A stretch of DNA of 64,000 bases from the NCBI GenBank assembly GCA_900318835.1, contig ONLW01000001.1:80382-144381 (forward strand), in the 5' to 3' direction. Under the pieces are notes generated by a model. That model saw only the letters and a program-made list of their open reading frames with translations. It was not told the origin of the DNA and did no database searches. This DNA comes from an uncultured Bacteroidales bacterium (GTDB lineage: Bacteria; Bacteroidota; Bacteroidia; Bacteroidales; P3). Within the stretch, counting starts at the first letter, position 1, and the number at the start of each line of letters is the position of its first letter. Shown here piece by piece: positions 5,439 to 59,269 of the stretch. A program made the translations under genes and the position numbers.

Positions 5439-5538
5439 TACCATCTCCCTATCAACTCTTACTCAACTCTTACTCATCTCCTACCCAACACCTACCCATG
5501 TCATACCATGGTAGGAGATGATTGGGGGTTGGTAGGTA
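5439..5538. repeat. CTACC palindromic repeat, copy R1
   Basis: This is copy 1 of a seven-copy intergenic family. Degenerate units of about 11 bases (TTACTCAACTC, TTACTCATCTC, CTACCCAACAC, CTACCCATGTC) run into the palindromic centre CCATGG at 5506-5511 and then into the reverse complement of the units. It lies between convergent genes, flanked by a hairpin on each side. Its left arm is close to the reverse complement of the right arm of copy R3. Confidence 0.8.
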
Positions 5539-15212: not shown

Positions 15213-15243
15213 CAAAAGTAGTACAATTTTCCATACCACCAAA
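15213..15243 (-). promoter_or_regulatory. Bacteroidota-type promoter for the minus-strand operon
   Basis: Read on the minus strand, TTTG at 15243-15240 and TACTTTTG at 15220-15213 are separated by 19 bases. This is a textbook match to the -33/-7 boxes of Bacteroidota. The predicted start is about 70 bases ahead of the small membrane protein gene and its downstream operon. Confidence 0.8.
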
Positions 15244-15324
15244 TTTTTTAACAAAATTTTAACATTATTTTTTACAGAAAAGAAAGAAACTTACTGTAAA
15301 CGAAACATATACACTTAATCCCAT

Positions 15325-15403
15325 CTACCTACCATCTCCTAACCAACACCCTACCAACTCCTACCATGGTAGGAGTTGGTAGGGTGTTGGTAGGGTCTTC
15401 GTA
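15325..15403. repeat. CTACC palindromic repeat, copy R2 (50-bp perfect palindrome)
   Basis: Bases 15342-15365 are exactly complementary to 15368-15391 (24 of 24) around an AT centre. This is the most perfect member of the seven-copy family. Further diverged units extend on both sides (CTACCTACCATCTCC to the left; AGGGTCTTCGTAGG to the right). It lies about 80 bases upstream of the operon promoter. Confidence 0.9.
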
Positions 15404-15488
15404 GGTCGTTCGAATCACCTTCGTCCGACTTTGGCACCAAATTTGCAGTAACATTCCTCCCCTATCTAGGTACTCCCCAACAATCAAA

Positions 15489-23769: not shown

Positions 23770-23780
23770 CCACGAATCTC

Positions 23781-23872
23781 CCTTCCAACACCCTGTCAAC
23801 ACCTACCATGGTAGGAGATGGGTAGGTGTTGGGTAGGAGATGGGTAAGAGTTGAGTAAGAGTTGATAGGTAG
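23781..23872. repeat. CTACC palindromic repeat, copy R3
   Basis: The centre CCATGG is at 23806-23811. The right arm carries the ordered units GGAGATG, GGTAGGTGTTG, GGTAGGAGATG, GGTAAGAGTTG, AGTAAGAGTTG, and ATAGGTAG. The left arm (CCAACACCCTGTCAACACCTACC) is shorter. It lies between two convergent genes. Confidence 0.8.
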
Positions 23873-39558: not shown

Positions 39559-39566
39559 TACCTTTG
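39559..39566 (+). promoter_or_regulatory. -7 box upstream of the cobalamin riboswitch
   Basis: TACCTTTG matches TAnnTTTG and is placed a few bases upstream of the riboswitch, so the transcript would start close to the first base of the aptamer. Confidence 0.65.
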
Positions 39567-39567
39567 C

Positions 39568-39800
39568 ATCGGTTTTGGTTCCCCCGCGAGGGGGCTAAGA
39601 GGGAACCAGGTGCGAATCCTGGACAGTCCCGCTGCTGTGAGTTCCAACAACTTACACAGTTTTTAACCAACGGTCACTGTGGCGCCAGCAGGTGCTGTGG
39701 GAAGGCCAAAAACTGGGAACCAATGGGTCCCCTAGGAGTCTCGGCAACCAAAGTGGAGCCAAGGTCCCCTAGTGTAGGAACAAGTCAGAAGACCTGCCAA
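39568..39800 (+). ncRNA. Cobalamin (B12) riboswitch
   Basis: The segment shows the conserved cobalamin aptamer blocks in order: GGAACCAGGTGCGAATCCTGG followed by ACAGTCCCGCTGCTGTG (B12-box-like core), CGGTCACTGTGGCGCC, GGTGCTGTGGGAAGGCC and AAGTCAGAAGACCTGCC near the 3' end. It lies 47 bases upstream of a btuB/btuG operon. By family knowledge, adenosyl- or methylcobalamin binding represses expression of B12 uptake genes. The start here is the TATA-like -7 box at 39559 and the end is the GACCTGCC block. Confidence 0.95.
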
Positions 39801-39847
39801 AGCTACAATCAATCATTAACAGCCCTCGAGGAATGGTCGTTTAATGC

Positions 39848-45162: not shown

Positions 45163-45392
45163 CTTTTTTCGCCAGAAAAGCTGTTGCAATTTAACATTTT
45201 TTAAGTTAATTCAATGGTACCAAAATCCCAACGGGCACCTGCTGTAAAGGCGGGTGCCCGTTTTTGTGCTTAATGCGCTGTGTATGATAGCGATGAACTA
45301 CTTACCATCTCCTTACCAACTCCTAACCAACTCCTACCATAGTAGGTGTTGATAGGGTTGTGACAGGGTGTTCATGTTTAACGGTTGTTAAT
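45163..45392 (+). ncRNA. Duplicated non-coding element, copy A (with CTACC repeat R5)
   Basis: This ~230-bp sequence matches 59039-59269 in inverted orientation with about 10 differences over 210 bases. In order it holds a T-rich start, TTAAC-9-GTTAA, a hairpin (45230-45262; ACGGGCACCTGC / GCGGGTGCCCGT, followed by TTTTTG), the sequence CTTAATGCGCTGTGTATGAT, then the CTACC palindromic repeat R5 (45299-45371) and TTAAC-GGTT-GTTAA. It lies between divergent genes, about 80 bases upstream of the LTA-synthase promoter. It encodes no convincing protein. Whether it is transcribed is not known; the type ncRNA is tentative. Confidence 0.7.
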
Positions 45393-45444
45393 ATTTTTCT
45401 ATTGGAACCTTCCCGGCCAACTGTTTGGAATCAGAAAACATTAA

Positions 45445-45478
45445 TTTGTGCAGGATTCAGGAATTATGCGTATTTTTG
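45445..45478 (+). promoter_or_regulatory. Promoter immediately upstream of the first LTA-synthase-like gene
   Basis: TTTG at 45445-45448 and TATTTTTG at 45471-45478 are 22 bases apart. The -7 box ends 5 bases before ATG 45484, so the transcript may have almost no leader. Confidence 0.6.
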
Positions 45479-45483
45479 CAGTT

Positions 45484-47418
45484 ATGATTAAAAAGAACTA
45501 TCGTTTCAACTATTTAATACTGATATATTTGGCAGGAATAGTCTTCTTTACACTGTTCCGTATTGCCGAAACCATAGCCTATTGTGCCCAGACTGAGGGG
45601 GTCGACAACTTCGAAGGGTTCTATGGACATGCGCTATGGCTGGGCTTTCGTTTCGATAGCGCCGTGAGTGCCTATATACTTATCATGCCATTGGTAATGA
45701 TGATTATCGGTGAGATGGCTCGTATACGAAAACGGTGGTATTATACTATCATTCATTACCTTACCATGGTCTTGTACACTGTCTGCTTTTTCGCCTGCGC
45801 TGCCGATATCCCATTCTTCGTCTATTTCTCCCAGCGACTCGACGCCACGGTGATGACGCTTGGTTCGTCGTTGCCGATGGTGGTGGACATGATTTTCAAC
45901 GAGCCGGAATACCTGTTCTATCTGGGTGTCTTCGTGGCCGTAAGTATAGGCTGGTGGTTCCTCGGAAGACTCATCTACCGCAAAGTACTGATTCGCCACC
46001 TTGAAGAAGAATCCCTCAATTATGGCTGGAGCATTCCACTAGCTGTAGTGCTACTGTTTGGCTTGTTTGTAGGCATGCGCGGCCACCTCACCAAGGAGCG
46101 TCCCCTTCGTCCCGATTACGCTGTCTTCTGTCACAATCCTTTCCTCAATCAGATTGGTCTCAACCCCGTTTTCTCTTTCATGAAAAGCGCTGAGGCCATC
46201 AGCAAGGACAAGAAAAATCCGCTCGAACTAATCGATATCGAGACCGCCCGCCAACAGTTTAAAATGCAACAGACATGGCCCATGGTCGAAGGCGACGCTG
46301 TGGCGCTTCCCAAGGGCACAAATGTGGTCATTGTGCTGATGGAGTCGATGTCTGTCGAGCGTACCTGCCTGGGGTCGACCCCTGAAGCAAGCCTTACCCC
46401 TTGTCTTGACAGCCTCATGCACCAAGGTATCACGTTCACCCAGGGCTGGTCGGCCGGCACCCAGAGCTACAACGGCATCTACTCCACCCACTACGGACAT
46501 CCTACCATCTTCAAGCGACATTCGCTGCACATCGACCGCGACATGGTTCCGCGCGTGTGCGGCCTTCCACAAATCCTCCAAGCCAACGGCTACAGTACAG
46601 CCTATTTCATGCCGCATAAAGGCGTCTTCGACGGTATGGAGAAATTCTTCTACAGCAATGGCTATGACCATGTCTTCGAAGAGAATAGCTATCCTAAAAC
46701 GGAACTGGTGGGCACCTACGGTGTACCCGACCATATTCTCTTCCACCATGCCATTGAATACATGAACCAAGAAAGCGCCAAAGGACCGACCTATATTACG
46801 GTGGCCACCTGCAGCAACCATCCACCACTGGCCCTACCCCAAAACATTGACTTCAAGCCACAAGCTGAGGATCTAAAAGAGCAGATGGTGGAGTATGCAG
46901 ACTGGTCCATTGGCCAGTTTATGACTGAGGCTGCGAAGCAGCCATGGTTCAGCAACACCCTCTTTGTCTTTGTGGCCGACCACGGATGCAACTACAAGGA
47001 ATCGCCCTACGACATTCACCTGCCTCATGTCCGCATCCCCATCTCGTTCTACGCCCCGGGGCGCATCGAGCCCAAATTCATCTCGCGGCAGGCTTGCCAG
47101 ATTGATGTGCCGCCCACCATCTTGGGCATGCTTGGCATCGACTACAGCAATCACATGCTGGGTATCGACATACTTAAACAACAACGGAAATACTCTGTCT
47201 TAGGGACATGGGAAACCATCGGTGCTGCCGACGGTGAATTGCTCTATATCTACCGCAAGGACGGTCGCAGCACACTCCACCGCTACATGGACGGCGACCC
47301 GGAAGATGTCAGTACCCAATATCCCGACCGAAAAGCCAACCTTGAGCGCTACATCAAGGGCATTGTCCAGCTCAGCTACCAAATGCTCCAGGACGGCTCC
47401 ACAAGATGTGACAAATAA
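45484..47418 (+). CDS. LTA-synthase-like membrane phosphotransferase, copy 1
   Basis: The 644-residue protein has five transmembrane segments in its first ~220 residues and a periplasmic alkaline-phosphatase/sulfatase-fold domain (~280-620). Visible metal-site motifs are VLMESMS (start of the domain), FVFVADHGC and HLPHVRIPISFY. It belongs to the LTA synthase/phosphoglycerol transferase family, which moves phospho-alcohol groups from phospholipids to glycans. In a Gram-negative host the acceptor is probably an envelope glycan, which is inference. The next gene is a close tandem paralogue (AGIVFFTLFRIAET shared). A GTG at 45448 would lie before the promoter, so ATG 45484 is chosen. Confidence 0.87.
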   Translation: MIKKNYRFNYLILIYLAGIVFFTLFRIAETIAYCAQTEGVDNFEGFYGHALWLGFRFDSAVSAYILIMPLVMMIIGEMARIRKRWYYTIIHYLTMVLYTVCFFACAADIPFFVYFSQRLDATVMTLGSSLPMVVDMIFNEPEYLFYLGVFVAVSIGWWFLGRLIYRKVLIRHLEEESLNYGWSIPLAVVLLFGLFVGMRGHLTKERPLRPDYAVFCHNPFLNQIGLNPVFSFMKSAEAISKDKKNPLELIDIETARQQFKMQQTWPMVEGDAVALPKGTNVVIVLMESMSVERTCLGSTPEASLTPCLDSLMHQGITFTQGWSAGTQSYNGIYSTHYGHPTIFKRHSLHIDRDMVPRVCGLPQILQANGYSTAYFMPHKGVFDGMEKFFYSNGYDHVFEENSYPKTELVGTYGVPDHILFHHAIEYMNQESAKGPTYITVATCSNHPPLALPQNIDFKPQAEDLKEQMVEYADWSIGQFMTEAAKQPWFSNTLFVFVADHGCNYKESPYDIHLPHVRIPISFYAPGRIEPKFISRQACQIDVPPTILGMLGIDYSNHMLGIDILKQQRKYSVLGTWETIGAADGELLYIYRKDGRSTLHRYMDGDPEDVSTQYPDRKANLERYIKGIVQLSYQMLQDGSTRCDK

Positions 47419-47433
47419 ACAAACACCATACGC

Positions 47434-49368
47434 ATGAAAAGAAACGCACGCTTCAACTACATACTTTGCATCTACCTTGCAGGAATAGTCTTCTTCACAC
47501 TGTTCCGTATTGCCGAGACCGTAGCCTATTGTGCCATTACCGAGGGGCCTGACGACTTCGGGGGCCTCTACTGGAAGGCGCTGTGGACAGGCTTCCGCTT
47601 CGACACCACGGTGAGCACCTACATTCTCGCCCTGCCGCTACTGCTGGTTATCATTGGCGAGATGGCTCACATACGCAAGCGCTGGTACTACGCCATTGGG
47701 CACTATCTGATGCTGGTGCTCTACACCGTCTGCTTCTTCGCCTGCGCAGCCGACATCCCCTATTTCTGCTATTTCTTCTCGCGGCTTGACGCTTCAGCTC
47801 TCGACCTAACCAATTCCTTCGGCATGGCAGTGAGTATGATTGTGCACGAGCCGATGTATATAGCCTATTTCTTTGTATTCCTCGTGGTGAGTGTGGGCTG
47901 GTGGCTGCTGGGGCGGTTGATATTCCGCAGGGTACTGATGGCCCACATCGATGAGCGTATGCCCTACGGATGGAGTATTCCGTTGGCAGTGGTGTTGCTG
48001 GTTGTAGGATTCATAGGCATGCGTGGTAGGGTAGCTAAAAAAAGTCCCATCCGTGTAGGCACAGCCTATTTTTGCAGCAATCCCTTCCTTAACCAAATAG
48101 GCCTCAATCCGGCCTTCACCTTCCTCAAGAGCATCGAGGATGCCAGCAAAAGTGCCAACCAGCAGGTTGAGCTTATTGACTTGGAAACAGCGCAAGCTGT
48201 GCTCGACGAACAACGCGCCCTGCCCGAGGACAACACGTTGCCCGAAGCCTTGTTGCACTTGCCGGAAGGGATGAACGTGGTGCTGGTACTGATGGAAAGC
48301 ATGTCGCGCGACAAGACCGGTCTGCACGATGCAGCCAATAGCCTGACCCCCTGTCTCGACAGCCTGATGCACCGCTCGATGACTTTCAGCGAAGCATGGT
48401 CGGCCGGCATCCATACCCATAACGGCATCTACTCCACCCTTTATGGCCATCCAGCCATCATGGCACGCCAGATGATCAAGAATACCCCCATCCCCAATAT
48501 GTGCGGCCTTCCACAACGACTACACGCCACAGGCTACCACACTTACTACTTTATGACCCACGACGAACTCTACGACAACATGCAGGGATTCCTCTACGGC
48601 AACGGATTCGACCGTGTAATTGGCGAGCATAGCTACCCAAGGAGCGAGGTGGTGGGCACATGGGGGGTGCCGGACCATGTGATGTTCGACCATGTACTGG
48701 AGCATATCGACAGCATCGCCGACAAAGGACCATTCCTCACCACGGTGATGACCTGTAGCGACCACGGCCCCTATATTGTTCCCGACGGCATCGACTTCAA
48801 GGCCAAACATGACGACGACAAGCTGAAGCGCATCGTGGAATATGCCGACTGGTCGATAGGACGATTTGTGCGTATGGCCGAAAAGAAGGCATGGTTTAAG
48901 AACACGCTGTTTGTCTTCATTGCCGACCACGGATCGTCATTGAACCCCGTCTACGATTTGACGCTGGCCTACAACCATGTGCCACTGCTTTTCTTCTGTC
49001 CCGGACAGATAGAGCCCCAGATGGTGGAACGGTTAGCCATGCAGATTGACGTGGCACCCACCATCCTTGGACTGCTAGGCATTGATGCAGGCGACCGCAT
49101 GCTTGGCATAAACCTTCTGAATCACAATAGAAAATACGCCCTATTCAGCGCCGACGACCGTATCGGCGTGGTGGACGGAGAGTTGTTCTTCCTCTACCGT
49201 TCGAAGCAGGACAAAGCTAGTCTCTACCGTTATCAGGAGCGTGACACCGTAGACCTGATCAAACAATATCCCGAACGTGCTGAGGCCATGCGCCGCTACG
49301 GTTTCGGATTGACGCAGATGGCCCAGGAGATGCTAATCAACAAGACCACCAGTTGCGACGCACTATGA
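47434..49368 (+). CDS. LTA-synthase-like membrane phosphotransferase, copy 2
   Basis: This 644-residue tandem paralogue of the upstream gene has the same length, membrane topology and near-identical helices (LAGIVFFTLFRIAETVAYC; VCFFACAADIPYFCYFF). The catalytic domain retains VLMESMSRDKTG, FVFIADHGSS and LAYNHVPLLFF. Differences cluster in the catalytic domain loops, which suggests a different acceptor. The stop overlaps the uvrB start (ATGA), so the two are translationally coupled. Confidence 0.87.
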   Translation: MKRNARFNYILCIYLAGIVFFTLFRIAETVAYCAITEGPDDFGGLYWKALWTGFRFDTTVSTYILALPLLLVIIGEMAHIRKRWYYAIGHYLMLVLYTVCFFACAADIPYFCYFFSRLDASALDLTNSFGMAVSMIVHEPMYIAYFFVFLVVSVGWWLLGRLIFRRVLMAHIDERMPYGWSIPLAVVLLVVGFIGMRGRVAKKSPIRVGTAYFCSNPFLNQIGLNPAFTFLKSIEDASKSANQQVELIDLETAQAVLDEQRALPEDNTLPEALLHLPEGMNVVLVLMESMSRDKTGLHDAANSLTPCLDSLMHRSMTFSEAWSAGIHTHNGIYSTLYGHPAIMARQMIKNTPIPNMCGLPQRLHATGYHTYYFMTHDELYDNMQGFLYGNGFDRVIGEHSYPRSEVVGTWGVPDHVMFDHVLEHIDSIADKGPFLTTVMTCSDHGPYIVPDGIDFKAKHDDDKLKRIVEYADWSIGRFVRMAEKKAWFKNTLFVFIADHGSSLNPVYDLTLAYNHVPLLFFCPGQIEPQMVERLAMQIDVAPTILGLLGIDAGDRMLGINLLNHNRKYALFSADDRIGVVDGELFFLYRSKQDKASLYRYQERDTVDLIKQYPERAEAMRRYGFGLTQMAQEMLINKTTSCDAL

Positions 49369-51452
49369 ACTTTGAACTGAAATCAGACTTTGCCCCCATG
49401 GGTGACCAGCCGGAGGCTATCCGCCAACTGGTGGAGGGTGTGCGTGCAGGCCAACGGGCTCAGGTGCTGCAAGGCGTGACGGGTTCGGGAAAAACATTTA
49501 CCGTAGCCAATGTTATCCAGGAGTTGCAGCGCCCCACGCTGGTACTCAGCCACAACAAAACCCTCGCGGCACAGCTTTATGGCGAGTTCCGCCAGTTCTT
49601 CCCCAACAACGCGGTGGAGTACTTCGTCAGCTACTACGACTACTACCAGCCAGAAGCCTATATCGCCGCCACCAATACATATATCGAGAAAGACCTAGCC
49701 ATCAACGACGAGCTGGACAAGCTACGCCTACGGGCCTCGTCAGCCTTGCTAAGTGGCCGCAGGGATGTCATCGTAGTCTCCTCAGTGAGTTGCATCTACG
49801 GCATCGGCAACCCCGACGAGTTCAAAAAGGGCACCGTGGAGATACGCGTCGGCGACCGCCTGAAGCGTGACGATCTGCTGATGAAACTCCTTGATGGACA
49901 ATATGTCCGCAATGAAATAGAGTTCGTTAACGGACGCTTCCGCGTCAAAGGTGACACAGTCGATATCTACCCTTCCTTTGCCGACTTCTGCTATCGCGTC
50001 TCTTTCTGGGATGACGAGGTAGAGCGTCTCGAGAGTTTCGACCCCGTCAGCGGCCAGCACCTCGACCGTTTCGACGAGATAACCATCTATCCCGCCTCCA
50101 ACTTCCTTACCTCGAAGGAGCACCTGCCCGAAATCATCCTGCAGATACAGCGCGACATGTTCGACCGCCGCGACTACCTCGAAAGCATCGACAAGCACCT
50201 CGAGGCCAAGCGCTTGGAGGAGCGCGTAAACTACGATCTTGAGATGATTCAGGAGCTGGGCTACTGCTCAGGCATCGAGAACTACAGCCGCTACTTCGAC
50301 GGCCGCCAACCCGGCACACGTCCTTTCTGTCTCATCGACTATTTCCCCGACGACTTTCTGCTGGTGGTCGACGAAAGTCACGTCACAGTGCCGCAAATCG
50401 GTGCCATGTACGGCGGCGACCGCAGCCGCAAAACCAGCCTCGTCGAGTATGGCTTCCGACTGCCATCGGCACTGGATAACCGCCCGCTGACCTACGACGA
50501 ATTCTATAACCTCACAGGCCAGACCATCTACATCTCCGCCACCCCGGCCGACTACGAACTGAGCGAAGCCGAGGGTGTGGTGGTGGAACAAGTCATCCGC
50601 CCCACAGGCCTGCTGGATCCCGTAGTCGAAGTGCGACCTGCCGTGAGCCAAGTCGACGACCTGCTGGACGAAATAGAAAACACCGTTGACAAGGGAGAGC
50701 GTGTCCTCGTCACCACCCTCACCAAGCGCATGGCCGAGGAACTCACCTCCTACCTCATCAACCTCGGTATCCGCAGCAAATACATTCACTCGGACGTTGA
50801 CACGCTGGAGCGTGTGGAAATCATGCGCGACCTGAGGATGGGTGTCTTCGACGTCCTCGTCGGTGTCAACCTGCTGCGCGAAGGGCTTGACCTGCCCGAG
50901 GTCTCCCTAGTAGCCATCCTTGATGCTGACAAAGAAGGCTTCCTCCGCAGCGACCGAGCCTTGATACAAACCATCGGCCGTGCGGCACGTAACGTGCACA
51001 GCAAGGCCATCCTCTACGGCGACACCATCACAGGTTCCATGCAGCGCGCCATCGACCTCACCAACCGTCACCGCGAGAAGCAGATACGTTATAATATGGA
51101 GCACGGTATTGTGCCTAAACAGATTGTCAAGTCCACCGACGCCATCCTCGGCACCACCAGCGTCATTGAACGTGCCGCCGAAGAGCGCAATGCCTTTGAA
51201 AAGGACCCCGTAAGCATCTACAAGGAGGATGTGCCCGTGGCCGCCGAGCCTGGATTCGAATACGGTCAGTCTGTAGCGACGCAGCCTGCTGCGTCTCCCT
51301 ACCTCGCAATGACAAAGGAGCAACTCCGCAAAGAAATCCGCGACCGCCAGCGCAAGATGCAACTGGCCGCCAAAGAACTGGATTTCATAGCCGCCGCAAA
51401 ATACCGCGACGAGATAAAAGAGATGCAATCTCTGCTCGAAACTGCCAGATAA
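49365..51452 (+). CDS. uvrB: Excinuclease ABC subunit UvrB, with a repeat-derived linker insert
   Basis: This 695-residue nucleotide-excision-repair helicase has Walker A GVTGSGKTFT, the beta-hairpin YYDYYQPEAY, LLVVDESHVT (DEAD-like) and RAARNVHSKAI. The C-terminal UVR motif is KEQLRKEIRDRQRKMQ (contacting UvrC). The start is ATG 49365 (MNFELKSDF), overlapping the previous stop. Residues ~636-646 (SVATQPAASPY), in the linker before the UVR motif, are encoded by a palindrome (GACGCAGC-CT-GCTGCGTC) that also occurs between genes at 43017-43040. This is an in-frame repeat insertion. Confidence 0.95.
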   Translation: MNFELKSDFAPMGDQPEAIRQLVEGVRAGQRAQVLQGVTGSGKTFTVANVIQELQRPTLVLSHNKTLAAQLYGEFRQFFPNNAVEYFVSYYDYYQPEAYIAATNTYIEKDLAINDELDKLRLRASSALLSGRRDVIVVSSVSCIYGIGNPDEFKKGTVEIRVGDRLKRDDLLMKLLDGQYVRNEIEFVNGRFRVKGDTVDIYPSFADFCYRVSFWDDEVERLESFDPVSGQHLDRFDEITIYPASNFLTSKEHLPEIILQIQRDMFDRRDYLESIDKHLEAKRLEERVNYDLEMIQELGYCSGIENYSRYFDGRQPGTRPFCLIDYFPDDFLLVVDESHVTVPQIGAMYGGDRSRKTSLVEYGFRLPSALDNRPLTYDEFYNLTGQTIYISATPADYELSEAEGVVVEQVIRPTGLLDPVVEVRPAVSQVDDLLDEIENTVDKGERVLVTTLTKRMAEELTSYLINLGIRSKYIHSDVDTLERVEIMRDLRMGVFDVLVGVNLLREGLDLPEVSLVAILDADKEGFLRSDRALIQTIGRAARNVHSKAILYGDTITGSMQRAIDLTNRHREKQIRYNMEHGIVPKQIVKSTDAILGTTSVIERAAEERNAFEKDPVSIYKEDVPVAAEPGFEYGQSVATQPAASPYLAMTKEQLRKEIRDRQRKMQLAAKELDFIAAAKYRDEIKEMQSLLETAR

Positions 51453-51484
51453 AAAAAGGCTCCCTTAATGGGAGCCTTTTTTTC
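51453..51484. terminator. Bidirectional terminator between uvrB and the coiled-coil lipoprotein gene
   Basis: AAAAAGGCTCCC, loop TTAAT, then GGGAGCCTTTTTTT. A-rich on one side and T-rich on the other, it serves both convergent genes. Confidence 0.88.
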
Positions 51485-51498
51485 TTATCATGTAACAC

Positions 51499-52371
51499 TT
51501 ATTTGGTCGAAACCACGAGGTAGTCGGTATATTTCCAGAACTGGGTGGGGTTGAGGATGCGGAGGTAAGCGGTCACATTGCTGTTCTCCTCGTCGGCCAC
51601 AAGTTCGTAGCTGTCTTCGGGATGCTGCGAGATAACCACGGCTTTCTTCTTGTTGATGGTGATGGTGGTCACCTTCGTGCGGTCGATTTCGGTGAAACGC
51701 TCGGTGCTCATGCCGGCCACAGTGCCCTGCTTGCGGCCGATGCCGATGAAGCCACCGGTCTTGGCCACGATACCGGCCTCCTTGAGTTCGTTGTAGGTTC
51801 CCACGACGAACCAGGCGCGGTTGGCGTCGGCAATCTGCTTGGCGATATACTGTTCCTTCTCCTGGTTGGAGGCGGTCAAATCAGAGACATTCTTATTGAG
51901 TCCTTTGATAACCACCTTGTTGTTCTCAAGCTCGGTAAGCAGCTCGGCAATCTGAGCCTCTTGGGCGGCGCTGCGTTCCTCAAGGCGGGTGATGTAGGCC
52001 TGAAGGTCGGTGTTGTTGCGGCCAAGCTCGTTCACCTTAGTGTTCAACTGGGCGATTTTCTTCTTGTTGGCGGCCATCATCGACTCGATAGAGCTCATCT
52101 GGTCGGTGATTTCCTTCTTGTGGTCGTAGGAACCCTCGGTATCGTTACGTCTGAGTTTCTGAACATTGGAATACTTGGAATTAATCATGGAGAGGTTATC
52201 CTCAATCTCATTGAGCATGGAGAAAAGTCCGTCAATCTCAGAGTCTCTGGCATCAACTATTTCCTGAAGGGAGTCGATGGACTTCTGGGAAGCTTCGAGT
52301 TCTTTCTGATTGCATGCCACGATAGTCATCGTTGCGGCCAACAAGCACATGGCCAAAAAGATTTTCTTCAT
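51499..52371 (-). CDS. Coiled-coil lipoprotein
   Basis: This 290-residue lipoprotein (MKKIFLAMCLLAATMTIVAC, cysteine 20) has a long coiled coil from about residue 25 to 180 (EASQKSIDSLQEIVDARDSE; LNTKVNELGRNNTDLQAYIT). A C-terminal globular domain of about 100 residues follows (AWFVVGTYNELKEAGIVAKT; YLVVSTK at the end). ATG 52371 is chosen since the signal peptide begins there. Similar proteins are common in Bacteroidota and unassigned; a structural periplasmic or outer-membrane role is plausible. Confidence 0.78.
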   Translation of the reverse strand: MKKIFLAMCLLAATMTIVACNQKELEASQKSIDSLQEIVDARDSEIDGLFSMLNEIEDNLSMINSKYSNVQKLRRNDTEGSYDHKKEITDQMSSIESMMAANKKKIAQLNTKVNELGRNNTDLQAYITRLEERSAAQEAQIAELLTELENNKVVIKGLNKNVSDLTASNQEKEQYIAKQIADANRAWFVVGTYNELKEAGIVAKTGGFIGIGRKQGTVAGMSTERFTEIDRTKVTTITINKKKAVVISQHPEDSYELVADEENSNVTAYLRILNPTQFWKYTDYLVVSTK

Positions 52372-52548
52372 TTTTCTATTCAAATTTGGTTCATACTCAT
52401 TTTTAATCCTTTTTCCTCTTTTTCGGAGGTATGTCAATAACGCCACCTTGCCCCTAATATTGCACAGGCTTGTGTTAAAAAAAATTAAAAAGAGCACTCA
52501 AAAACGCCTACTTTACACTTGATACTAACTAGCTGATAACCACTTATC

Positions 52549-52600
52549 AACTCCCTATCAACTCCTACCCAACTCCTACCACGGTAGGTGTTGATTGGGT
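52549..52600. repeat. CTACC palindromic repeat, copy R6
   Basis: Units TATCAACTCC, CTATCAACTCC, TACCCAACTCC, then the centre CCACGG (52579-52584) and the right arm GGTAGGTGTTGATTGGGT. It lies between the divergent coiled-coil lipoprotein and M3 peptidase genes. The sequence after it (AATATTTTTCTGATAGGAC) resembles that after copy R5 (AATATTTTTCTATTGGAAC). Confidence 0.75.
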
Positions 52601-52661
52601 GAAAATATTTTTCTGATAGGACAACAAAATAATTTTCATTTCTGTACGTTATTCATATATT

Positions 52662-54653
52662 ATGAATGTACTTTTACAGGATTGGGAATTTCCCCCTTTC
52701 GACCAGATACGCACCGAAGATTACGAACCTGCCATCCGCACCGCCATCGAGGAGGCGGAACGCAACGTGGAGGCTATCGCAACAAGCAAAGAATCACCGA
52801 CTTTCGAAAACACAGTGGAGGCTTTGGAGTACGCCTCAAGGCGTCTCGACCGCATCAGTGCCCTCATGCTCAACCTCAACGAATGCTGCACCAGCAACGA
52901 GCTGCAGGAGGTGGTGATGAAACTGGAGCCACTGATGACACGCTTCTCGATGAAGGTGGTGACCGACGAACGGCTGTACAAACGAGTGAAATATGTTTCT
53001 GAAAACTCAGAATACTCTGATCATTCAGAACACTCTGAGAAAAACACCCTGCTAGAGAACACCCTCAAGAGTTTCCGACGTCACGGTGTGGCACTGCCGC
53101 CGGAGGAGCGTGAGCAGTACAAGAAGAACGAAGAGGAACTCAGCGAGCTGAAGTTACGTTTCAGTCAGAACGCACTGGCCGACCTCAACGACTGGACGCT
53201 ACATCTCACCGACGAAGCCGACCTCGCAGGACTGCCCGAGGCAATTCGTACCGCAGCCCACGAAGAGGCTGTGAGCCACGGTCTCGAAGGATGGCTGTTC
53301 ACACTGGCAGCACCATCATACCTCCCCTTCATGACCTACAGCGACCGACGCGACCTGCGGGAGAAGATGTATCGTGCTTACGGCAGCATCGGAGGAAGGG
53401 ACAACGAGCACGACAACAACGAGGTGATACGCAGGATTGTCGAGCTCCGGGCCAAGCAAGCCCGTATGCTGGGATACAACACCTATTGCGACTATGTGCT
53501 GGAAGACCGTATGGTGCAAAGTCTGCCCAACCTGCGACGATTCATGAACGACCTGAAGGCCGCCGTCCTCCCTGCCGCAGAAAATGATTTGGCCGAGATG
53601 ACCAGAATATCCGGACTATCCGAAATCTCCGGATGGGATATCTCCTATCTTTCCGAGAAACTGAAGCAGCAACGCTATGCCTTCGACAGTGAAGCCTTGC
53701 GGCCTTATTTCCCGCTGGAGGCCGTGCGCGAGGGCATCTTCGGTCTCTATGGCCGTCTCTACGGATTGCACTTTGAACCCGCTCCAGAGGTACCCGTATA
53801 TCACGAGGATGTGAAGGTATACCGCATACTTGACGGCATGCGGGAGATGGGAATCCTCTATCTCGACATGCACCCGAGGGCCTCCAAGCGCAGTGGCGCC
53901 TGGATGACGGAATTCCGCGGACAGTACGGAACTGTGCGACCCCAGATACAGGTGGTGTGCAACTTCAGCAAGCCCACTGCCGACACCCCTGCCCTACTGC
54001 GATTCAGCGAGGTAGAGACTTTCATGCACGAGATGGGACATGCCATGCACGGGATGCTGAGCGATGTGCAGTACGAGAGCTTGAGCGGCACCAACGTCAA
54101 GCGCGACTTCGTGGAGATGCCATCGCAGGTGATGGAAAACTGGTGCTACGAGCCGGAGTTCCTCAATACTTTCGCCCGTCACTGGCAAACTGGTGAACCG
54201 CTGCCGACAGAATATATCGACAAGATTCGTGCTGCCCAGAACCATCTGGCGGGATGGCTCTGCCTGCGGCAGCTCAACCTCGGATTCACCGATATCGCCT
54301 TCCACACCATGCACGACGGTTCAACCGTCGAGAAAGCCGAGGATGTGGAAGCCGCCGCTATGACCGACCTCCTACCGCGTGTGCCGGGTTGCTGCACGGC
54401 CACCAACTTCAGCCACATCTTTGGTGGCGGATACGCCAGCGGCTACTACGGCTACAAATGGGCCGAAGTGCTGGATGCCGACATCTTCAGCCGCTTCAAG
54501 GCCGACGGCATCTTCAACCCAAAGACAGCCACCGACTTCCGACGCGAGATACTCTCACGTGGCGGCACCAAGCCCCCCTCCGTGCTTTTCAAAAACTTCA
54601 TGGGTCGCGAGCCCGACAATAAAGCATTACTTAAAAGAATGAACCTACTATGA
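52662..54653 (+). CDS. M3 family oligopeptidase (Dcp/PrlC-like)
   Basis: This 663-residue zinc peptidase has the HExxH motif HEMGH at about residues 456-460, preceded by RFSEVETFM. The surrounding helical domain is typical of the M3 family, including DFVEMPSQVMENWCYEP, which carries the third ligand. There is no signal peptide, so it is cytoplasmic and degrades short peptides. Two segments are encoded by 9-base tandem tracts: residues 113-127 (SENSEYSDHSEHSEK) and 316-324 (ISGLSEISG). Both fit in frame and probably lie in surface loops. The stop overlaps the rnr start (ATGA). Confidence 0.92.
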   Translation: MNVLLQDWEFPPFDQIRTEDYEPAIRTAIEEAERNVEAIATSKESPTFENTVEALEYASRRLDRISALMLNLNECCTSNELQEVVMKLEPLMTRFSMKVVTDERLYKRVKYVSENSEYSDHSEHSEKNTLLENTLKSFRRHGVALPPEEREQYKKNEEELSELKLRFSQNALADLNDWTLHLTDEADLAGLPEAIRTAAHEEAVSHGLEGWLFTLAAPSYLPFMTYSDRRDLREKMYRAYGSIGGRDNEHDNNEVIRRIVELRAKQARMLGYNTYCDYVLEDRMVQSLPNLRRFMNDLKAAVLPAAENDLAEMTRISGLSEISGWDISYLSEKLKQQRYAFDSEALRPYFPLEAVREGIFGLYGRLYGLHFEPAPEVPVYHEDVKVYRILDGMREMGILYLDMHPRASKRSGAWMTEFRGQYGTVRPQIQVVCNFSKPTADTPALLRFSEVETFMHEMGHAMHGMLSDVQYESLSGTNVKRDFVEMPSQVMENWCYEPEFLNTFARHWQTGEPLPTEYIDKIRAAQNHLAGWLCLRQLNLGFTDIAFHTMHDGSTVEKAEDVEAAAMTDLLPRVPGCCTATNFSHIFGGGYASGYYGYKWAEVLDADIFSRFKADGIFNPKTATDFRREILSRGGTKPPSVLFKNFMGREPDNKALLKRMNLL

Positions 54654-56959
54654 ATGAGAATTTAGCAAAACAGATACTCAAAATCTTTGCCAACAATCCT
54701 TTCGACGCCTACAACCACAAGCAGATTGCCTCACGCATCGGTGCCAACAGCAAAGCCGAGCGACAGGAGGTGATACGCACTATCCAGGAACTCGCCGAGC
54801 AGAAACACCTCGTCGAGGACAGCCACAAAGGCAAATACAAGATCAACCCCAAGTCCATCGACGATGAGCTGCTGCCGCAGAACTACGTCACCGGCACCAT
54901 CGACATGAAGCAGGGTGGAAAAGCCTACGTGATTCCTGAAGAGGAAGGTCGCGAAGACATCCAGATTGCCCCCAACAACACCCACCATTCCCTCCATGGC
55001 GATACTGTGAAGGTGCTAATGTTCCCCCAACGCAAGATGCACAAGCCCGAGGGTCAGGTGGTGGAAATCATCAAGCGGGCCAAGACGCGCTTCGTGGGCG
55101 TCATCCAGAGGCAGGAGCGCTTCGCTTTCATGGTCAGCGACTCACGCACCATGCCCGTGGATATCTGCATCCATATCGATGACCTCGGTGGCGCTGAGAA
55201 CGGCGAGAAGGTTCTGGTGGAGATGACCGACTGGCCCGAGCGCATGAATAATCCCGTGGGCAAGGTCGTCAAACGCCTCGGTAAACCTGGCGACAACAAC
55301 GTCGAGATGCAGTCCATCCTCGCCGAGTACGACTTCCCGCTCGACTTCCCCAAGGAGGTCGAGGAGGAGGCCAAGAAGATAAAGAAGCCCACCAAGAAAG
55401 AAATCTCCAGCCGCAAAGACTTTCGCGATGTCACCACCTTCACCATCGACCCTGCCGATGCCAAGGACTTCGACGATGCCCTCAGTTTCCGCGAGCTGGA
55501 AAACGGCCACGTAGAGGTGGGCGTGCATATCGCCGACGTCTCATACTATGTGAAACCCGGTAGCGCCATCGACCGCGAAGCCTACGAGCGCGGAACCTCC
55601 GTCTACCTCGTCGACCGCACTATCCCCATGCTCCCCGAGAAACTCTGCAACGAAGTCTGCTCCCTCCGTCAGGACGAGGAGAAACTCTGCTTCAGTGTGG
55701 TAATGGAGATGGATAATAAAGGCAAAGTTTATGACACCTGGATGGGCAAGAGCGTGATTAAGAGCAACCGCCGTATGGCCTATGAGGAGGCGCAAGAGAT
55801 AATAGAATCCAACACTGCACCCGACGGTTCCCCCGTCGGGAAGGCCATCCTCGCCCTCCATGCCATCGCTCAAAAGCTCCGTGCCGCACGTTACAAGAGT
55901 GGCGCCATCAATTTCGAGACCCAGGAGGTGAAATTCCAACTCGACGAGAACGCCAAACCCATAGGCGTCTACATCAAGGAGAGCAAGGAAGCCAACTGGC
56001 TCATTGAGGAGTTCATGCTGCTAGCCAACCGCAGCGTGGCCGAGTTTATCGGCAAACCCAGTAAATCTAGTGCTACTAGTAAAACTAGAAATGCTCGCAC
56101 CTTTGTCTATCGCGTTCACGACGAGCCCAACCCCGAGAAGCTGAACACCTTCGTGGAGTTTGTCGCCAAGCTGGGCTTCAGCATGAAGACCTCCAGCCGC
56201 AAAGCCCTTGCCGAGAGCTACAACCGCCTCTTCGAGAATATCGCGGGACGTGGTGAGGAGCACATGGTCGACACCATCGCCATCCGCACCATGTCCAAAG
56301 CCTACTACAGCACCGAGAACATCGGCCACTACGGTCTCGCCTTCCCCTACTACACCCACTTCACCTCCCCCATCCGCCGCTATCCTGACCTCATGGTCCA
56401 CCGCCTGCTGGAGCGCTACCTGCAAGGCGGCACCTCCGTCAAGGCCGCTGAATACGAGGACTATTGCAAGCACTGCTCCATCATGGAGAAGAAAGCTGCA
56501 GATGCCGAGCGCACCAGCGTGAAATACAAGCAAGCCGAGTTCCTGGCCGACAAGCTGGGACAGGTCTTCCCTGCCCTCATCAGCGGTGTCAGCAAATGGG
56601 GCATCTATGCCGAGATCGAGGGGAACAAGTGCGAGGGCATGATACCCATTGGCAGCCTCAAGGACGACTACTACATGCTCGACGAGGACAACTATCAGGT
56701 CATAGGCCGCCGTCATGGCCGCTGCTACAAACTCGGCTATCCCGTCCACATCCGCGTCCGACGTGTCGACCTCCTGAAGAAGCAGATAGACTTCGATCTC
56801 GTCGAGGAAGACGACCACATCGCGGGTGCCCCCGCAGGGCGAAAAACGGCGGGGAAACATGCTACGCAAACATCCAAAGACAAAAGCCAGCGCAACAAGA
56901 AAGGCTCGCCTTCCGCCAAAGACAACAAGAAGAAGAGCCATTCCCGCCACAAGCGATAA
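54650..56959 (+). CDS. rnr: Ribonuclease R
   Basis: This 769-residue 3'-5' exoribonuclease has a winged-helix N-terminus, cold-shock OB domains (~65-220) and a catalytic RNB domain with DPADAKDFDDALSF (aspartates that bind Mg2+). An S1 domain follows at about 640-715 (FPALISGVSKWGIYAEIEGN), then a lysine-rich tail. It degrades structured RNA, including rRNA and mRNA fragments. Residues 470-481 (PSKSSATSKTRN) are encoded by four 9-base units (cccAGTaaa, tctAGTgct, actAGTaaa, actAGAaat), close to the tract at 18069-18122. The start is ATG 54650, overlapping the M3 stop. Confidence 0.94.
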   Translation: MNENLAKQILKIFANNPFDAYNHKQIASRIGANSKAERQEVIRTIQELAEQKHLVEDSHKGKYKINPKSIDDELLPQNYVTGTIDMKQGGKAYVIPEEEGREDIQIAPNNTHHSLHGDTVKVLMFPQRKMHKPEGQVVEIIKRAKTRFVGVIQRQERFAFMVSDSRTMPVDICIHIDDLGGAENGEKVLVEMTDWPERMNNPVGKVVKRLGKPGDNNVEMQSILAEYDFPLDFPKEVEEEAKKIKKPTKKEISSRKDFRDVTTFTIDPADAKDFDDALSFRELENGHVEVGVHIADVSYYVKPGSAIDREAYERGTSVYLVDRTIPMLPEKLCNEVCSLRQDEEKLCFSVVMEMDNKGKVYDTWMGKSVIKSNRRMAYEEAQEIIESNTAPDGSPVGKAILALHAIAQKLRAARYKSGAINFETQEVKFQLDENAKPIGVYIKESKEANWLIEEFMLLANRSVAEFIGKPSKSSATSKTRNARTFVYRVHDEPNPEKLNTFVEFVAKLGFSMKTSSRKALAESYNRLFENIAGRGEEHMVDTIAIRTMSKAYYSTENIGHYGLAFPYYTHFTSPIRRYPDLMVHRLLERYLQGGTSVKAAEYEDYCKHCSIMEKKAADAERTSVKYKQAEFLADKLGQVFPALISGVSKWGIYAEIEGNKCEGMIPIGSLKDDYYMLDEDNYQVIGRRHGRCYKLGYPVHIRVRRVDLLKKQIDFDLVEEDDHIAGAPAGRKTAGKHATQTSKDKSQRNKKGSPSAKDNKKKSHSRHKR

Positions 56960-56999
56960 AAGCAGAGCCTACCTAATCACTACCACCCGCAAAAAGGGA

Positions 57000-57047
57000 C
57001 TGCCGCAGGCCAATTCGAGTAATTCGCTCCCAATTGACCTGCGGCAG
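57000..57047. terminator. Hairpin between convergent rnr and acyl-CoA ligase genes
   Basis: CTGCCGCAGG (57000-57009) pairs with CCTGCGGCAG (57038-57047). The 28-base loop contains AATTCGAGT-AATTCGCTC, and further 9-base units (AATTCGCGT, AATTAGAAT, AATTCGCCG) follow at 57050-57076. This short tandem tract is similar in style to the other 9-base tracts of this window. Confidence 0.6.
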
Positions 57048-57091
57048 TTAATTCGCGTAATTAGAATAATTCGCCGTTAAAAGAATCGCCG

Positions 57092-58882
57092 TTATTTGAA
57101 CAGCGCCTCTATCTGCTCCTTGTAGGCGGCGGCAACATTGCGGCGGATGAGCTTTTGCGTGGGGGTGAGCATCTTGTTGCTCTCGTTCCAGGTGTCGGCC
57201 ACAAGGACGAACTTCTTCACCTGCTCGGTAACACCCAACTCAGCGTTGTACTTATCCATCACCTTCTGGTAACGAGCAATGACTGTCTTGTCTGCAATCA
57301 TCTCTTCCTTGCTCTCGGCCACGACACCATGGCGCTTGCACCAGTCCTTCAGCATGTCGAAGTCGGGGGCGATAACGGCGGCAGCATACTTCTGGTCGGC
57401 ACCCACCACCATCATGTCGAGGATGAAAGGCGACTGCTTCATCTTCTCTTCAATCACCTCGGGATTAATGTATTTACCCATCGAGGTCTTGAACATGCTC
57501 TTCGTACGGCCGGTGATGAAGAGGTAGCCGTCGGGATCGAAGAAACCCGTGTCGCCGGTATGGAACCAACCCTCTTGGTCGATAGCCTCAGCCGTGAGCT
57601 CAGGCTGGTTGTAGTAGCCCTTCATCACATTACCACCACGGCACTGTATCTCATTGGTTTGCGGGTCAATACGCACTTCTATCGCCCTCATGGCAAAGCC
57701 CACGGATCCAATCTTGCGACCTTTCTTATTGCTGTTTGTAACGGCAATCAGGGGCGAGCATTCGGTAAGGCCGTAACCTTCGTAGAGGTCCAATCCCACA
57801 CAGGAGAAGAACCTCGTGAGGCGAGGCTGGATGGTGGCACCACCACTGACGAGCATATACAACTCGCCTCCCATACTCTCGCGTATCTCCTTATACACCA
57901 ACTTGTCAGCCCACTTCTTCTGTAATTTATACCAGGCCGAGAGCTTCGACTCGTCGAGTTCGTACTCGAAAGCCAGATTGATGGCCCAGTCGAAGATTTT
58001 CCTCCCTATACCGCTCATCTTCTCGCCCTTGCGGTAAATCTTGTCGTAGACCTTTTCGATGAACCGTGGCACACAAGCCATCATATTGGGACTGATTTCC
58101 TTGCAGTTGTCGCCCACCTTGGCGATGCTCTCGGCATAGGCAATGGTGAAGCAGAGCCACTGGTAGAGGTAACCCATCATGCGCTCATAAATATGGCACA
58201 TGGGGAGCCATGAGAGGGCCTTGGTCCAAGTCTTTCCGGGGCTCTCCTTAATCTCCTGCACGTTCATTATCAATCCCCTATGGGTCAACATAGCGCCCTT
58301 GGGGACACCCGTGGTGCCGCTGGTATAGATCATCGTGCAGACATCGTCGACGGTCTGCGCATCCTTCATCTCCTGCAACTTGGCGGGTGCCTCGGGATGC
58401 TCCCTTACATACTGGCATCCAATCTCATAGATGTCGTCCATCGACTTCACACCCTCCATGGGGACAATGGTGCAGAGATTTTCCAGATGCGGCAGCTTCT
58501 CTCGGATATTGCTGATTTTCTTGTATAAAGCCGGTGTTTCGACCACCAGCAGGCGTACCTGTGCGTCGTTGAGGATATACTGGTAGTCTTCCTCGCTGAT
58601 TGTCGGATAGATAGGCAACAACACGGCACCTGTCTGCTGCACGCCGAAGTCCACGTAGTTCCATTCCGGACGGCCGGCGGAGATAAGGCCGATATTCTCG
58701 CCCTTCTTCACACCGAGGTGCATCAAGGCGTAGCTGATGAGGTCAACTTTCTCTATATATTCATCGATATAATGCTCTTTCCATTCGCCGTTTTCCTTGA
58801 ATTTGAACACGGGGCGCTCGGGATGCAGTTCCTTTCTCCAAGCCAGCAAGTCGAATAATCGGGTAGGCTCTTGCATAGTCAT
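57092..58882 (-). CDS. Long-chain fatty acid--CoA ligase (AMP-binding)
   Basis: This 596-residue adenylate-forming enzyme activates a fatty acid to acyl-AMP and then acyl-CoA. Core motifs are MIYTSGTTGVPKGAMLTHRG (AMP-binding P-loop), EGYGLTECSPLIAVT and GWFHTGDTGFFDPDGYL. The C-terminal lysine region is FKTSMGKYINPEVIEE. The length is normal for the FACS group. A -7 box (TATTTTTG, 58912-58905) lies 23 bases upstream of the ATG, and the duplicated element B lies beyond it. Confidence 0.93.
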   Translation of the reverse strand: MTMQEPTRLFDLLAWRKELHPERPVFKFKENGEWKEHYIDEYIEKVDLISYALMHLGVKKGENIGLISAGRPEWNYVDFGVQQTGAVLLPIYPTISEEDYQYILNDAQVRLLVVETPALYKKISNIREKLPHLENLCTIVPMEGVKSMDDIYEIGCQYVREHPEAPAKLQEMKDAQTVDDVCTMIYTSGTTGVPKGAMLTHRGLIMNVQEIKESPGKTWTKALSWLPMCHIYERMMGYLYQWLCFTIAYAESIAKVGDNCKEISPNMMACVPRFIEKVYDKIYRKGEKMSGIGRKIFDWAINLAFEYELDESKLSAWYKLQKKWADKLVYKEIRESMGGELYMLVSGGATIQPRLTRFFSCVGLDLYEGYGLTECSPLIAVTNSNKKGRKIGSVGFAMRAIEVRIDPQTNEIQCRGGNVMKGYYNQPELTAEAIDQEGWFHTGDTGFFDPDGYLFITGRTKSMFKTSMGKYINPEVIEEKMKQSPFILDMMVVGADQKYAAAVIAPDFDMLKDWCKRHGVVAESKEEMIADKTVIARYQKVMDKYNAELGVTEQVKKFVLVADTWNESNKMLTPTQKLIRRNVAAAYKEQIEALFK

Positions 58883-58904
58883 TTTTTAATTTATGTTAAT
58901 TTTG

Positions 58905-58912
58905 CAAAAATA
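58905..58912 (-). promoter_or_regulatory. -7 box of the acyl-CoA ligase gene
   Basis: TATTTTTG on the minus strand, 23 bases before the ATG at 58882. TTTG is only 12 bases upstream, so the -33 box is not certain. Confidence 0.5.
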
Positions 58913-59038
58913 CGCATATTTTTTCAAACAGGAAAAAGAAAAATCTTAAAAAAACAACAGAGAGAACATAACCAAAACATTCACAAATAATTAGCAAGGC
59001 CAACCCATTAAAAAGAACTAGTAAGGAGAAGTGAATTG

Positions 59039-59269
59039 TTAACAACCGTTAAACACGAACACCCTGTCACAACCCTATCAACACCTACTATGGTAGGAGT
59101 TGGTTAGGAGTTGGTAAGGAGATGGTAAGTGGTTCATCGCTATCATCCACAGCGCATTAAGCACAAAAACGGGCACTTGCCTATACAGCAAGTGCCCGTT
59201 GGGATTTTGGTATCATGGAATTAACTTAAAAAATGTTAAATCGCAACAGCCTTTCTATCGAAAAAAAAA
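59039..59269 (-). ncRNA. Duplicated non-coding element, copy B (with CTACC repeat R7)
   Basis: This is the inverted copy of 45163-45392. The hairpin at 59168-59200 (ACGGGCACTTGC / GCAAGTGCCCGT on the minus strand) differs from copy A at three stem positions, yet all pairs are kept: one C-G became T-A and one T-G became T-A. A T run (TTTTTG) follows on the minus strand. CTACC repeat R7 is at 59060-59131, and TTAAC/GTTAA motifs flank both ends. It lies between an acyl-CoA ligase promoter and the end of a lipoprotein gene. The type ncRNA is tentative. Confidence 0.7.

Follow-up and report, generated by a model that had tools for sequence, protein, structure and literature searches.

What kind of sequence is the short non-coding element that occurs twice, in inverted orientation, in a 64,000-nucleotide (nt) stretch of contig ONLW01000001.1 from an uncultured Bacteroidales bacterium? 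The whole stretch is referred to here as the window, coordinates are window positions unless prefixed with C, and the bacterium's own genome is designated G000. An earlier note on this DNA had described the two copies, here called A and B, as a mobile or duplicated element bearing an RNA. On balance, and with rather more confidence than doubt, we favour a different interpretation, namely that they belong to a family of dispersed, non-coding intergenic DNA elements that join a terminator to a predicted protein-binding array at the boundaries of transcription units.

The limits first proposed for the copies (45163-45392 and 59039-59269, about 230 bp with about 10 differences over 210 bases) need slight revision: A and B are indeed inverted copies, but their gapless alignment covers 212 bp each and contains 14 differences, 10 of them within the first 205 bases. 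The same alignment bears out the claim of three pairing-preserving differences in the hairpin stem, C53-G67 of A being T-A in B and T54-G66 being T54-A66, i.e. three changed bases in two pairs with pairing kept throughout. The described layout of TTAAC boxes, T-run and CTACC repeat is present in both copies, and each faces a co-oriented gene, as had been stated; A lies between divergent genes (HPr-kinase-N/DRTGG-like on the left, sulfatase-family on the right) and B between co-directional genes, with an AMP-binding (acyl-CoA synthetase-like) gene ahead. The parts of the two copies are listed below, where bits are covariance-model scores, dG is folding free energy and TATTTTTG is a putative promoter sequence that we take to be of the Bacteroidetes -7 type.

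45187..45398, + strand: class I element, copy A (234.6 bits, covariance-model positions 1-212)
45190..45209, + strand: left box (LE) of A, TTTAACATTTTTTAAGTTAA
45232..45260, + strand: GC-rich hairpin of A, putative intrinsic terminator (from fold, covariation and dG comparison)
45261..45265, + strand: T-run 3' of the hairpin of A
45278..45290, + strand: small second hairpin of A (CTGT/ATAG; 93.8% of its cells pair across 16 copies)
45298..45371, + strand: 11-bp-phased CTACC/GTAGG array of A, dyad between 45339 and 45340, centre CATA
45376..45391, + strand: right box (RE) of A, GTTTAACGGTTGTTAA
45471..45478, + strand: promoter-like TATTTTTG 5' of the sulfatase-family gene (Pfam Sulfatase)
59032..59243, - strand: class I element, copy B (231.2 bits)
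59221..59240, - strand: LE of B
59170..59198, - strand: GC-rich, terminator-like hairpin of B
59059..59132, - strand: 11-bp-phased array of B
59039..59054, - strand: RE of B
58905..58912, - strand: promoter-like TATTTTTG 5' of the AMP-binding (acyl-CoA synthetase-like) gene (Pfam AMP-binding)

Because the two copies differ and have different flanks on one contig, an assembly artefact is an unlikely source of the pair.

A search with copy A by BLAST gave 58 matches in G000, and 16 full copies, 13 of them exactly 212 nt as cut, were aligned to build a covariance model. A search of the genome with this model scored 150 of the 859 first-look candidates and gave 150 places, among them cases in which both strands of one palindrome appear; 17 of these places are full-length, or class I, copies with scores of at least 178.6 bits, the next score being 121. 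The remaining places are either class II elements, which are centred on the CTACC/GTAGG array and have the array without the rest, or weak matches. A pattern for the left box found 23 matches at up to two mismatches in the genome (94.6% complete) and none when reversed; 17 of the 23 are the LE of the class I copies and four lie at class II places. Since there are 17 full-length copies, and 23 left-box matches against 0, the family is not a product of chance. Two further left-box-like sequences, each with two mismatches (G000:C4:9867-9885 and G000:C29:12319-12337), lie outside the listed class I and class II places. The window itself holds the following class II elements and arrays, the lag scan being the search for tandem periodicity described below.

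15224..15422 (C23:95605-95803), + strand: class II array element (83.2 bits), also found by the lag scan
23780..23854 (C23:104161-104235), - strand: class II array element (58.3 bits), also found by the lag scan
52466..52631 (C23:132847-133012), + strand: weak class II match within the A-B block (59.7 bits)
5449..5492, strand undefined: 11-bp array from the lag scan (example unit CAACTCTTACT)

Outside G000, the covariance model matched at E <= 0.001 in 16 of 59 genomes of the genus, a patchy distribution, with at least 38-40 matches in each of six genomes when the best 40 per genome were scored, and an exact 28-base pattern was present in 25 stretches of metagenome-assembled genomes labelled Bacteroidales, Bacteroidetes or Prevotellaceae. 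The earlier description of a duplicated, dispersed element is thus supported by the 17 genomic copies and the matches across the genus. A phage or plasmid origin was considered and rejected, copy A having no match at E 1e-3 in phage and plasmid collections and the 28-base pattern none in viral contigs. In 91 pairwise comparisons of the 14 equal-length copies, A and B stand well apart from the rest with 93.4% identity, the second-best pair having 83.5% and the median being 70%.

The hairpin is the part of the element on which the RNA interpretation turned. Among the 16 aligned copies its covariation score was 0.256, compared with 0.166 +- 0.024 after shuffling (reached in 0 of 500 shuffles) and 0.05-0.12 for slid controls, and 19 cells carried double changes where shuffles gave 8.9. 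The covarying hairpin, for which the earlier note had suggested a covariance model and a test of covariation, therefore exceeds shuffled expectation, although 28% of the helix-1 cells are unpaired; by RNAalifold, 7 of 36 pairs showed changes on both sides and the covariation term was only -0.5 kcal/mol. Such covariation, together with a + strand of copy A that folds better than its shuffles (z -4.3), speaks for a mobile or duplicated element carrying a functional structured RNA, but the - strand folds well too (z -3.7), the best Rfam score, 25.8 bits, falls short of the gathering score of 74, and 12 of 41 class I copies sit between divergent genes. A gathering-threshold search of the window against Rfam gave only a cobalamin riboswitch elsewhere in it, and an E-value search of seven loci gave no described family.

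The hairpin is, moreover, optional. We scored it as present where dG was <= -10 in a fixed window, and among 41 class I copies from four genomes it was present in 25 and absent in 16. Whether a copy has it goes with the way the gene upstream reads: 20 of 21 copies whose left gene reads into the element have it, as opposed to 3 of 18 whose left gene reads away (p 4.6e-7), the count leaving out L063 and L076, two loci with a strong hairpin and no left-gene call. With the stricter cut-offs of -12 and -14 the reading-in group still contributed 16 and 15 of 21 versus 3 of 18 (p 3e-4 and 1e-3, respectively), and collapsing related copies to sites by hand left 12 of 13 versus 3 of 16 (p 1e-4). Two of the reading-away exceptions, A and L145, have left flanks unlike those of their relatives, while L146 (hairpin present, left gene reading away) and L157 (left gene reading in, no hairpin) are unexplained. 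In the reading-in group the left box often starts a few tens of bases from the stop codon, and it overlaps the stop in L070 and L161. A GC-rich stem followed by a T-run and kept 3' of co-directional genes is what distinguishes an intrinsic terminator, and the natural reading is that the hairpin may serve as one for the incoming gene, being retained where it is needed. We read it as a terminator rather than as an RNA gene because an RNA gene would not show such an association with the orientation of its neighbour. With an optional hairpin, a negative Rfam result and, as set out below, conservation of a DNA-like kind, 'RNA-bearing element' is not the best description; a structured RNA gene was rejected and a functional RNA cargo appears improbable.

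If the hairpin can be lost, what is it that is kept? We identified in-place orthologues in nine groups by shared flanking genes (for L074 and L153 by non-coding flank), giving 17 pairs. Over these pairs LE, core and RE could be aligned without gaps at 92, 92 and 91% identity, respectively, whereas the hairpin spacer (74%), the right flank (80%) and the left flank (77%, 13 pairs) have changed faster; with one pair for each of the nine sites the values were 92% for LE, 91% for core, 91% for RE, 73% for spacer and 78% for right flank. Spacer length is equal in 11 of 17 pairs and otherwise differs by 1-2 bp. Of the 41 copies, 38 have an LE-to-RE span between 184 and 187 (exactly 186 in 30); the other three measure 197-198, and two of these (L074 and L153) have one extra array unit. 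The centre of the dyad alternates pyrimidine and purine (YRYR) in all 41 class I elements and in 79 of the 83 elements of class II, 124 loci being what was left of 144 after duplicates were collapsed, with eight unplaced loci left out; departures from the commonest base comprise 99 transitions and 4 transversions at the dyad centre and 454 and 634 in the arms, a contrast whose p value of 5e-30 assumes an independence that the copies violate. The right-hand gene is co-oriented in 14 of the 16 class I copies of G000 with a gene call, or 15 of 17 when L063 is added by eye (p 0.025 against an expected 0.62 from a small background). In the copies examined, the conserved features are thus DNA-like: near-fixed spacing of the boxes and an 11-bp-phased array. 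At three loci in three species (L066, L145 and L160) the right-hand gene is the same and the left sequence differs in each, the break falling at the left box.

The same boxes bring to mind a miniature inverted-repeat transposable element (MITE), that is, a short transposon, non-autonomous and ending in imperfect TTAAC repeats, that is moved by a transposase acting in trans and has no role in the host. Short, dispersed copies that are non-coding and carry a TTAACA-type box at each end, the patchy occurrence within the genus and one presence/absence difference between close relatives would all suit such an origin. The boxes are imperfect and can be read as inverted or as direct repeats. When the ends are set at the boxes, however, no target-site duplication is seen in 41 copies (mean 1.10 bp versus 1.06 for shuffled pairings). 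In-place divergence is lower in the boxes and core than in the spacer and flanks. Of the 23 left-box matches in G000, the only genome searched in this way for an autonomous relative with the same ends, 21 belong to class I or class II places, the others being the C4 and C29 matches. We therefore consider an ordinary MITE unlikely, and the word 'mobile' is not borne out in the sense of a transposition event and its machinery; spread is read here from copy number. BrickBuilt, a minisatellite-bearing MITE of Porphyromonas gingivalis, is similar in that a tandem array lies within a dispersed non-coding element of a Bacteroidetes bacterium, but it has a 23-nt unit and terminal repeats resembling known insertion sequences (IS), whereas the unit here is 11 bp and often arranged as a dyad, and no IS with matching ends was found (PMC4596501).

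The array proved to be one member of a larger class. Upstream of the acyl-CoA synthetase gene in other species there are arrays of a different unit, again with 11-bp spacing, and we scanned lags of 7-24 in three samples, two from the genus and one from other families. In the first (580 kb, nine genomes), which includes the window and stretches picked around the site of B and is not blind, there were 36 arrays at 11 bp, distributed over all nine genomes, compared with 23 at the multiple 22 bp, 22 at 7 bp and 13 at 14 bp; in the second (20 kb from each of 20 other genomes) there were 12 in seven genomes, making 48 arrays in 16 of 29 genomes, and in both samples no other period was as frequent as 11 bp. 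The 22 genomes of other families of the order, sampled as 288 kb in stretches of 0.4-20 kb, yielded no array at 11 bp, where the density of the second sample predicts 8-9. The units include GGTCCGNNGAT, CTTAGGTTATG, GACGGAGGTGA, CCTAGTAGTAA, GGCCGAAGGGG, CGCCTGATCAA and GAAGAACAATC, and they are specific to species: a pattern for the unit type of G010 had 351 overlapping matches in that genome, 6 in G070 and 0 in 14 other genomes and in a backward control. Context was counted with strict gene callers in place of a loose one, and 48 of 48 arrays were intergenic; arrays occurred in 20 of 54 divergent gaps of at least 200 bp and in 18 of 121 other gaps of that size (odds 3.4, p 0.0015). As ungapped hairpins 20 of the 48 clearly beat their shuffles, and the longest hairpin seen was a palindrome at L356:14775-14879 (G028), whose arms, built of the 11-bp unit GAAGAACAATC, pair perfectly over 44 bp. 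An 11-bp array was present at the site of B in 9 of 30 loci (six by detector and those of G002, G010 and G022 by eye) and at a second compared site in 4 of 30; because the site of B was selected for having an array in G000, conservation of array positions over long distances is not claimed beyond the nearest relatives. Tandem arrays with a 7-bp period were common in the genus as well, 22 in 580 kb and 10 in 400 kb, and rare in the outgroup, with one in 288 kb.

Symmetric DNA phased at 11 bp might wrap gyrase or another topoisomerase, which would cleave at the 4-bp YRYR centre, and strong sites of this kind offer a further explanation of the arrays. The YRYR dyad centre is compatible with it, and the Escherichia coli gyrase motif is a symmetric 130 bp with flanks of 10.75-bp periodicity and a 4-bp cleavage stagger (PMC6379681). 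That motif and BIME-2, a bacterial interspersed mosaic element (BIME), are like the present arrays in their symmetry and in arms with a period of about 11 bp, BIME-2 being intergenic as well, but theirs is a degenerate GC periodicity and not a repeated sequence unit (PMC6379681). The array units studied here are specific sequences, in contrast to the degenerate gyrase motif, and 28 of the 48 arrays are without a clear dyad hairpin. Gyrase load is expected downstream of genes, whereas the arrays are enriched between divergent genes and not 3' of genes. A gyrase-like wrapping site may be retained as a live analogy, although location and sequence specificity speak against it; as an explanation of the arrays we regard gyrase sites as very improbable. 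Two other kinds of periodic sequence are distinct. The TAACTGA direct repeats of Beggiatoaceae and five Bacteroidetes are likewise abundant intergenic short tandem repeats adjoining genes, but have a 7-nt unit and, in the best-studied genome, lie mostly just 5' of start codons (PMC4679880), while the units here are 11 bp, species-specific and farther upstream. The weak genome-wide dinucleotide periodicity of 10-11 bp reported for many organisms (PMC7537859) differs from discrete arrays.

A GTAG-bearing palindrome in many intergenic copies also recalls the repetitive extragenic palindromic (REP) and BIME sequences that accompany REP-associated tyrosine (RAYT, Y1) transposases and are tagged with GTAG or CGTC (PMC3733652). 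Short palindromic intergenic repeats, many copies and lineage-specific sequences are common to both systems; the element here differs in having no adjoining Y1 transposase, a GTAG away from the foot, 11-bp phasing and a composite form of near-fixed length. There are two Y1 transposase genes in G000, each with REP-like repeats of its own, and in G002 a GTTGGTA/TACCAAC cluster lies about 1.35 kb from the Y1 locus L191. Set against this, no more than two lone heptamers occur at any of the other 19 of 20 Y1 loci (drawn from 8 of 12 genomes), none of the 20 has an array cluster directly beside the gene, and the copy-rich genome G009 has no Y1 match. GTAG lies inside the stem near the dyad, within a longer array, rather than at the foot of a 20-40 bp hairpin, and several sister arrays (of GGTCCG, CTTAGG and GACGGAGG types) are without GTAG in the unit. 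Membership of a RAYT system seems extremely unlikely, and the assignment was rejected, the two Y1 genes of G000 having other REPs and L191 being the one exception. The element thus resembles REP/BIME sequences, MITEs and BrickBuilt in being short, intergenic and repeated, while lacking the tested RAYT-REP features and any target duplication. By eye, the two RAYT-like Y1 genes of G000, L060 (C23:53309-53650) and L061 (C32:25057-25347), have nearby GTAG-type REP-like hairpins, GGTAGCCAGCCGTTTCAACGGCTGG and TGGTAGGGGCGTACCCCCGTGTACGCCC, which are unlike the studied element.

Our current interpretation is accordingly of a composite DNA element at transcription-unit boundaries, from which we infer three processes, namely termination, protein binding and copying. 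The hairpin and T-run would stop transcription of a gene entering from the left-box side, selection retaining the hairpin where such a gene exists and permitting its decay elsewhere. Whether or not the hairpin is there, the TTAA boxes together with the 11-bp-phased array would form a protein-binding site at the DNA level, mostly 5' of a gene, where a protein or protein oligomer may bind one face of the helix along phased half-sites. The array class, widespread in the genus with a unit that differs by species, would have been copied into many intergenic places.

Several observations count against this interpretation or limit its scope. The copies are related and the counts based on them are not independent, and within single genomes the dG contrast had p values of 0.04 (G000), 0.10 (G069) and 0.06 (G009). 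Gene directions come from a home-made caller, of which a looser first version placed 21 of 48 arrays in 'coding' sequence. Conservation does not extend to the piece between core and RE (68%), and the aligned spacers required 53 gap openings in 17 pairs. In the second genus sample 11 bp had only a slight lead, with 12 arrays as opposed to 10 of period 7 bp and 9 of period 9 bp, and no 11-bp array was seen in the 20 kb of 13 of the 20 genomes. Only 20 of the 48 arrays clearly beat shuffles as ungapped hairpins, and neither A nor B, with mismatches in their arms, is among these, so that dyad symmetry is not general; enrichment in divergent gaps may partly reflect their greater length. Copying is read from copy number, the ends of 41 copies show no target duplication, and the sole presence/absence difference between close relatives (L071 versus L158) may be a deletion.

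More tentatively, and with more doubt than conviction, the genus-wide sets of 11-bp-phased intergenic arrays, in which each species has its own unit and the geometry (phase, spacing, YRYR dyad) is kept while the recognised sequence turns over, could be the mark left by a rapidly evolving, helix-phased DNA-binding protein (of nucleoid, regulatory or mobile-element type) together with its co-evolving sites. No description of species-specific 11-bp arrays was found in the open-licence PubMed Central literature at the level of titles and abstract openings. The element divides into a replaceable part, the putative terminator, whose retention only where it is needed would be a natural experiment on how selection acts on termination, and a conserved helix-phased DNA part that recurs across the genus in different sequence forms. 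Should there be a cognate protein, the species-specific arrays would be ready partners for testing the co-evolution of DNA recognition and dispersed sites, as in the REP/RAYT system but without an identified transposase.

A and B may also have acted together. Most of the genes between them form a block that is present in G069 and G009 and is inverted between those two genomes relative to a shared left flank. In G009 a class II array (C16:30630-30675) lies at the junction adjoining the gene of B; at the A end the sulfatase paralogues are reshuffled, the best match to the gene of A is only 60%, and the contig ends soon after. No such array is present at either block end in G069, and the G000 sequence outside A and B has no match in the compared stretches of G069 or G009. 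Recombination between inverted copies, together with conversion, would explain both the inversion and the likeness of A and B. Next to A are tandem sulfatase-family paralogues (45448-47418 and 47434-49368), each of which matches the other's counterparts in G069 and G009. The cobalamin riboswitch that the Rfam gathering search detected in the window lies at 39559-39815 and scored 90.6 bits.

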